64,000 nt of DNA from Paramecium tetraurelia (Eukaryota > Ciliophora > Oligohymenophorea > Peniculida > Parameciidae), in the NCBI RefSeq assembly GCF_000165425.1, contig NW_001799026.1:124001-188000 (forward strand). Reading direction: 5' to 3'. The translations under genes and the position numbers were made by a program. This document shows positions 40,876 to 42,859 of the stretch, piece after piece. Position 1 is the first letter of the stretch. Every line of letters begins with the position of its first letter. Below the pieces are notes generated by a model. That model was not told the origin of the DNA. It did not search any database and was given only the letters and a program-made list of their open reading frames with translations.

Positions 40876-42859
40876 TCATTATGTATTTAATAGAGTTTGA
40901 TAATGCTCTATCTTTTCAGCCCAAGCCTTTTTATTTTCTGTGATTTACTCAATGAACTCAGATAATTGTGGCAGTATTTGTGAAAGAGTATTATAATAAG
41001 GGAGAACCTATTACTATTTTTTGTGTTTTTACCATAAAGTCAATAAATCCTATTTAGCTTTTGGCAACATTCGTTGTCCTTCTGTCACAAAGCATTGTAA
41101 CTGGAAGTCCTAACTCCTTCTCTCTGTCTCCTTGGTGCCAGAATTCCCCTAAAACTCTAAAGGTCCATTACTCATAGTTTTTCATGGGTTTGAAAGGATT
41201 ACTGATATCTGCAGCATGTAATAAAGTATCAAAACAAATCCCTTTATCTTTAGATCCAGGGTCAAAATCATTTGAAGCCAATCTTGCCTTCAATTTATTA
41301 TAATCTAAAATAATTGAATGGAATACCTTTTCCATGCATGGCATTGTCAGTACTTAGAATCATGTTAATTGATTTTTCTCTAAAGTATTTAAAATCTTAT
41401 AGTGTGAAATGAACCAACAAATCAGTCTCTCTAATGTATCTGAACAAGGTAGCTGCATGATGTTATTCAAGGGGAGACTTATCATTATAAGTCATAGCCA
41501 AATCATGTCTAGTGTTGGATAGGAAAATGTTATTTAAGCCTGGATGGTCAGCATCATGAGCTGCAGCAGACATTAAGAGAATAGAGTAGTCTATTTTAGT
41601 CAGTTTTCCTATTTCCTTGAAGTTGCATTTTTAAATGAAGAAATAGACAGTATGAGTGACATCAAAGGCATGAATTACGTTATGGTATAAGTTATCTTTG
41701 TGATAACTTAATGCAATTTTGTCTACACATTTCTTAAAAGATTCTGGAGAGATCCTCAAGTTACTGAACAATGACTCTTGTTGGAAGTAGTAACACATCA
41801 AATGGGTCAGTATGGAACTATCATATTTTTAAAAGAGAGAAAAGTAATCATAATCTAGATTCAAGATGTTTTAATCGAAATCCAGCTTTAATTATTCTGG
41901 CAGATGAGATTCATCAGGAAACTATGTATCAGATGACATTGAACGCTTCAAATCTTGAGAAATATGTTGTTGCTATTATTGTTGATAGAGCCATCCCAAA
42001 GCTTCACTCTTTTTACCCTCTATTATGGGTTCATAGACAGTGTTGTTGGATATGTGAGTGATGCCCCAATTCAATTGTTTTATAATGTCTGGATCCTCGA
42101 ATTGATCAGCAAGATCCCTCATTATTTCTATTACTTTTTCGACTGGGGAACGAACTACGTATCTTGTGCCGGCATTATTTATCTTTTTGACTTGATTGTA
42201 CTGTTCGAAAATAATATTAAAGAAATTTACTTTGCGAAAGACTAAAAATAGCCTTAAAAATCTGAAGATTCCTCTTAAAACTTTGCTTATCGTAGTAAAT
42301 GCATCACCTTCTAAATTGAGATCGAGAATGATCAAAACGATTGAAGCAATTATAATGAGAGCATCGAAGACTGACCACAAATCGGAAAAGTATGTCTAGT
42401 GTATATGAATATGGTATACTATGGGTCCAACATCGATACATCTGATTGAAATTTCTAAAACAAATAGAATGAGAATGACTAATTCAATTATTTTAGTTAT
42501 AAAGAGAGTCTTTTCTATGTCGGGATCTTCTTTAGCATCGTTAGCTATACAAATTATTACTAAGTAAGTTACATGTAAATGAGAAGTTAATGAACACCAG
42601 TAACGTAAAGAGGACAACTAGAATGATGACAACCTTATCTATCAGTGGAATTCCAACCAGCTTTTGATCAGTGATTCTGCAATTATTTTGTAAAAATTTA
42701 CTCATCCACAACTACACGATCAACCCCATCTATATTGTAAGAAGACCTACGATCTCCCAGAATGTTAGAAATTTCCTTTGAACCTCGTGGAACTACTTTG
42801 GCCCCCATTTGACCTGCATTCCTTTTGGAATCCTCATTCAATTGCTATTCTTCTGCCAT
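40876..42859 (-). CDS. Voltage-sensor-like domain fused to cyclic nucleotide phosphodiesterase
   Basis: 619 residues; introns 42677-42701 (25), 42545-42572 (28), 42396-42419 (24), 41305-41326 (22) and 41008-41032 (25 nt). Residues about 60-230 form four helices: S1 KVVIILVVLFTLLVFI, S2 LVILILFVLEISIR, S3 LWSVFDALIIIASIV, S4 LRGIFRFLRLFLVFRK. The S2 Glu...Arg, S3 FD and Arg-rich S4 are voltage-sensor hallmarks; no pore helices follow. The C-terminal half is a class I phosphodiesterase: HNVIHAFDV, HDADHPG and LLHAADISNP supply the metal ligands, with GEFWHQGDRE and GFIDFMVLPYY later. It would hydrolyse cAMP or cGMP at a membrane, possibly under voltage control (inference). Confidence 0.88.

Follow-up and report, generated by a model that had tools for sequence, protein, structure and literature searches.

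Can a voltage-sensor-type domain be joined directly to an enzyme that breaks down cyclic nucleotides? The question is raised by a locus of Paramecium tetraurelia in the window G000:C73:124001-188000 (the whole stretch of DNA that was analysed, 64,000 nucleotides), where an earlier note had placed such a fusion on the minus strand at 40876..42859. We read the locus with genetic code 6 (TAA and TAG as Gln, TGA as stop) and searched the genome to which it belongs, 69 Mb in 231 contigs. The gene does run from an ATG at 42859 to a TGA at 40878-40876, and the spliced model codes for 609 residues in the order four helices (S1–S4), linker, and complete class I phosphodiesterase (PDE). Its features, in window positions, are as follows.

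40876..42859, minus strand: VSD–PDE gene, seven exons, 609 residues; spliced model, with the same six intron places in the paralogues L040 and L041
42702..42859, minus strand: exon 1, N-terminal residues 1-52 plus part of 53; N-terminus aligned in both close paralogues
42677..42701, minus strand: intron 1, 25 nt, GTA..CAG; spliced model
42573..42676, minus strand: exon 2, S1 at about residues 66-87; spliced model
42545..42572, minus strand: intron 2, 28 nt; spliced model
42420..42544, minus strand: exon 3, S2 with E108, F115, E118 and R122; spliced model
42396..42419, minus strand: intron 3, 24 nt, in frame; the C198 paralogue has 20 nt at the same place
42231..42395, minus strand: exon 4, S3 (D140) and S4 (R170, R174, R177, R183, K184); the exon end is exactly the S4 end
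42201..42230, minus strand: intron 4, 30 nt, in frame, reading VNFFNIIFEQ if kept; paralogue introns of 26 and 28 nt
41327..42200, minus strand: exon 5, linker (SPVEKVIEIMRDL..), then HNVIH (H357) and HDADHPG (H399, D400) in the PDE's first half; spliced model
41305..41326, minus strand: intron 5, 22 nt; spliced model
41033..41304, minus strand: exon 6, HAADISNP (D508) and SQIGF (Q559); spliced model
41008..41032, minus strand: intron 6, 25 nt; an alternative of 19 nt, 41032-41014, would add two residues
40876..41007, minus strand: exon 7 and stop TGA (40878-40876); spliced model
42231..42648, minus strand: voltage-sensor-type domain S1–S4, residues 63-184, with introns 2 and 3 inside; Ion_trans profile and PDB profile search
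41268..42641, minus strand: one open frame, 457 codons with no TGA, holding S2–S4, HNVIH and HDADHPG unspliced; ORF reading

The final splice model was built by spliced alignment to paralogues on contigs C198 and C39. Introns of 20–30 bases are found across the gene and its paralogues, a length that together with code 6 suggests Paramecium; the six of this gene measure 22–30 nt each. The earlier count of five thus has to be raised by one: the in-frame 30 nt at 42230-42201, directly after S4, are also an intron, because the C198 and C39 introns at this place (26 and 28 nt) would break the frame if retained. We accordingly rejected a model that keeps intron 4, since the paralogue introns cannot be coding. 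Its removal raises the Ion_trans score from 42.7 to 46.7 bits, and the C198 intron at this place uses AAG, a less usual acceptor. Likewise, the in-frame intron 3 is read as spliced because its 20-nt counterpart in C198 forces splicing. The direct joining of helices and PDE, as originally claimed, does not hinge on these choices, for the unspliced frame at 41268-42641 already spans S2–S4 and the HNVIH and HDADHPG motifs.

Codon-based prediction by itself missed the full gene. One codon-score predictor proposed a start at 42837 in another frame, which we rejected because residues 1-55 align in the paralogues; a retrained version split the gene and called a PDE-only gene, which was rejected on the same grounds. 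Such scores mark down membrane segments, a further reason to set these predictions aside.

Genome-wide protein searches with the sensors of the window and of C58 recovered six VSD–PDE loci forming two subfamilies: subfamily A comprises the window gene on C73, C198 (547/609 identical), and C39 (509 of 610 columns identical), and subfamily B comprises C58, C138, and C157. The two are about 29% identical over sensor and linker, and they have in common the SPVEK..LADQ linker; the subfamily-B models start at the place of residue 57. In the C138 copy (L043), the frame looks disrupted between linker and catalytic part, with the sensor exons reading through—a copy in recent decay, or an assembly fault. 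A comparison of the window gene with C198 showed purifying selection across all parts, with dN/dS of 0.043 for the sensor, 0.038 for the PDE, and 0.159 for the N-terminus; in the comparison with C39, synonymous changes have reached saturation. One tblastn scan each of genome_contigs (47 pattern matches) and viral_contigs (93) found no relatives elsewhere, which says little because neither set, as far as stated, holds ciliates.

These data bear on the simplest challenge to the fusion, namely that helices and enzyme are made separately, either from two genes or through alternative splicing that yields mainly soluble PDE. A codon-based predictor did call a PDE-only gene from 42122, and the same genome has a seven-helix gene beside a PDE gene as two genes on C168 and C47. 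However, no TGA lies between helices and PDE in the one frame, the paralogues share the joined order, the intron positions, and the linker, and every part is under purifying selection. We regard separate products as very improbable.

The enzyme had been described as an intact class I PDE with HNVIH, HDADHPG, and HAADISNP, and this is borne out by a Pfam PDEase_I match over the full profile (1-238 of 238) at 265 bits, against a cut-off of 24.8 (E=9e-79). The PDE domain matched 151 PDB sequences at E<=1e-10, and the best solved relatives among the top 60 examined are PDE4B (1.6e-51), PDE1B (5e-51), and PDE9A (2.7e-46). H361, H399, D400, D508, Q559, and F562 lie inside motifs aligned to PDE4B; in class I PDEs, such H/H/D/D residues bind the metals and the Q/F pair forms the purine clamp. 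The predicted target of hydrolysis is cAMP or cGMP, with the choice between them a guess; section 3 of PMC10865986 warns against inferring PDE substrates. No Pfam match at E<=10 to a PTEN-like phosphatase domain, in whose stead PDEase_I is found, or to Guanylate_cyc was detected in the 609-residue protein.

The genome-wide inventory of PDEs yielded 69 matched stretches, which we grouped by position into 42 loci; these counts are lower bounds. Among the 22 loci examined individually, six have the sensor and 16 do not. In those 16, the sensor profile gave at best E 0.6, at 4 kb upstream, and the linker profile gave nothing convincing (best E 0.11). For the remaining 20, absence of the sensor rests on the genome-wide protein searches, in which no sensor match beyond the six coincides with a PDE locus.

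Two side observations came from this inventory. First, the genome combines at least 42 PDE loci with 105 cyclase-domain stretches, a cyclic nucleotide repertoire that is very large for a unicellular organism. Second, at L059 and L060 (C168 and C47), a seven-helix gene (..ICWLPS.., ..FNSLVY..), receptor-like in our own reading of its sequence, lies about 0.9–1.7 kb upstream of the PDE domain, in both copies on the strand that carries the PDE gene. A receptor–PDE fusion considered here was rejected, since the first gene stops at a TGA and the PDE gene has an ATG of its own; a hand-joined query had no Pfam match.

Turning to the membrane part, the profile check against ion-transport models proposed in the earlier note gave a clear Ion_trans match over residues 67-194 (profile 6-121 of 241, E=3e-12, 46.7 bits against a cut-off of 25), with PKD_channel below threshold (18.8 against 22.4 bits). 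This alignment ends at 121 of 241, whereas four channel frames in the same genome run to profile position 234-239, two of them three times each; thus, S5-pore-S6 is absent from the protein, as had been noticed. When the single 609-residue protein was searched against PDB sequences, 105 matches were obtained at E<=10, and nearly all of the 60 listed are channel sensors, with one plain stray among them (a photosynthetic reaction-centre chain, E=0.33). A family profile of the six VSD–PDE members found 62 PDB matches at E<=0.01, the best of those listed being Cav3.2 (8e-17), and these include 3wkv (7e-8), Ci-VSP 4g7v (5e-7), and TPTE2 9c49 (4e-4). By name, 55 of the 60 listed are calcium or sodium channels, voltage-sensing phosphatases, or chimeras. 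The other five carry the names 'Ion channel' or 'Ion transport protein', which we take to be an Hv1 chimera and a bacterial sodium channel. Among the matches listed in these PDB searches, the sensor scores highest against those of calcium and sodium channels.

The residues of a sensor are likewise present. S2 FVLEISIR, S3 VFDALIII, and an Arg-rich S4 with R170, R174, R177, and R183 at spacing 4, 3, 6 were all found as previously described. Channel work assigns such S2 and S3 acids (E108, E118, D140) the role of counter-charges and places the aromatic (F115) at the constriction. These roles are also described in parts of PMC13095418. All four positions are invariant in the six rows of the family alignment (as E51, E61, D83, and F58, the two S2 acids standing ten apart), together with R117, R120, R126, and K127, which are R174, R177, R183, and K184 of the window protein. 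The S4 core FRFLRxFLxxRK, the two S2 acids, and the S3 Asp are invariant in 6/6 loci. By our own count, conservation among the four helices is highest in S4, where 11 of 18 columns (110-127) are invariant against 5 of 22 (9-30) in S1; S4 is identical at 24/24 residues in each of the three subfamily-A pairs, with synonymous sites changed (pS 0.56-0.93). Profiles and conserved paralogues give strong support to a pore-less voltage-sensor-type domain fused to an intact PDE.

In an every-third-position register of S4 (G171, R174, R177, L180, R183), three charges fit with a gap between them: G171, the first position of the register, and L180, where a charge would be expected, interrupt the basic series, and R170, which is off register, is found in subfamily A only, with Gln in B. 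The effective charge of S4 may be small, and these irregularities speak against voltage gating.

The break at L180 would suit a relic or adapted anchor, in which S1–S4 fix the PDE to the ciliary or plasma membrane without voltage sensing, perhaps by docking onto channels or the channel-cyclase. Alveolates commonly have membrane-bound PDEs: parts of PMC5746546 describe Plasmodium PDEs with up to six helices, and parts of PMC10865986 describe six in most apicomplexan clade A PDEs. However, the S2 acids, the S3 Asp, and the S4 arginines would be dispensable in an anchor, yet they do not vary between subfamilies that share only about 29% identity, and S4 is the best-conserved helix. We hold the anchor to be unlikely, though it is the foremost competitor of voltage control. 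A further alternative has the sensor conducting or sensing otherwise, as a proton (gating-pore) path or as a lipid or pH sensor that regulates the PDE. In its favour, sensors without S4 charges often leak through a gating pore, according to parts of PMC10651576, and the PDB matches include the 3wkv sensor chain; against this, the strongest listed matches are calcium and sodium channel sensors, and a bulky Leu occupies the S4 charge gap. It appears improbable, well behind the anchor.

On balance, the sequence evidence slightly favours a cyclic nucleotide phosphodiesterase that is bound to the membrane and gated by its potential, a counterpart of the channel-cyclase. In this mechanism, depolarisation would move S4 outward past the F115/E118/D140 constriction. 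S4, whose end is an exon border, would continue straight into the linker, and the predicted helical SPVEK..LADQ segment would alter the arrangement of, or access to, the catalytic domain. Hydrolysis of cAMP or cGMP beneath the membrane would change in consequence; that depolarisation switches it on is a guess at the sign, by analogy with the voltage-sensing phosphatase. Together with a hyperpolarisation-linked channel-cyclase, such hydrolysis would make the cyclic nucleotide level read voltage more steeply. Parts of PMC4588038 and PMC8964087 report that hyperpolarisation accompanies a cAMP rise, that the cyclase carries a K+-channel domain, and that PDE activity is integral to cilia; a ciliary location of the predicted enzyme is a guess. 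The physiological role is contested: in the relevant part of the review PMC8208649, cAMP injected under voltage clamp left beat frequency unchanged, which speaks against a motor role, and the same injection raised the voltage threshold for reversal.

The fusion is best set against known systems. The voltage-sensing phosphatases (Ci-VSP, TPTE2), whose sensors are among the matches above (4g7v, 9c49), have a pore-less S1–S4 N-terminal to a cytosolic enzyme, as here; their enzyme, however, is a PTEN-like lipid phosphatase rather than a PDE, and the phosphatase S4 has four in-register arginines (R223, R226, R229, R232, as given in parts of PMC13095418) against three here. The channel-adenylyl cyclase of Paramecium, Plasmodium, and Tetrahymena also joins a channel-derived membrane part to a cyclic nucleotide enzyme in the same kind of organism (parts of PMC4588038 and PMC10651576). 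The proposal that our protein is its reverse stands as a fair analogy of function and does not extend to structure: the cyclase makes cAMP, carries a K+-channel domain (parts of PMC4588038, PMC5746546, and PMC10651576), and keeps its K+ pore, whereas the VSD–PDE is pore-less with a sensor nearest to those of calcium and sodium channels. Such channels in the same genome share the sensor half of Ion_trans, yet extend to 234-239 and are repeated, in contrast to the one half-domain plus enzyme. The apicomplexan multi-helix PDEs couple N-terminal helices to a class I PDE (parts of PMC5746546 and PMC10865986); they differ in that their descriptions give as many as six helices and call the 'regulatory domains not defined'. 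Fig. 1 of PMC10865986 covers Paramecium PDEs with Pfam domains. SLC9C1 (sNHE) and Hv1 have a sensor on a non-channel or alone (parts of PMC10651576), and are an exchanger and a proton channel without a PDE.

Section 4 of the 2023 review PMC10651576 lists, as sensor proteins, channels, sNHE, the cyclase with a K+ pore, Ci-VSP, and Hv1, and no PDE. A text search of the main text of PMC13095418 found no 'phosphodiesterase', and full-text literature searches outside subscription papers and preprints showed no description of a sensor–PDE fusion among the titles and abstracts listed; databases may list the architecture without comment. On this review list and these searches, the VSD–PDE is a sensor-coupled enzyme with a new enzyme. 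In parts of PMC8670190, PDEase_I and Ion_trans are reported, for syntenic regions in four Euplotes subgroups, to be 'always adjacent'; this may reflect the same fusion, split by annotation into two genes.

Pore-less coupling of a sensor to an enzyme is known for a lipid phosphatase, and breakdown of cyclic nucleotides is absent from section 4 of PMC10651576. We give about even chances that the pore-less sensor directly gates hydrolysis, in which case voltage-controlled enzymes would number three kinds, this one joining the lipid phosphatase and the channel-cyclase. If the sensor works, neither calcium nor a channel would be needed for membrane potential to set cAMP or cGMP, and the tie between voltage and cyclic nucleotides in Paramecium swimming would become testable through one small family. 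Such a protein would also provide a natural building block for tools that turn voltage into a cAMP or cGMP signal. If this is true, ciliates would control both the synthesis and the breakdown of one messenger by voltage.
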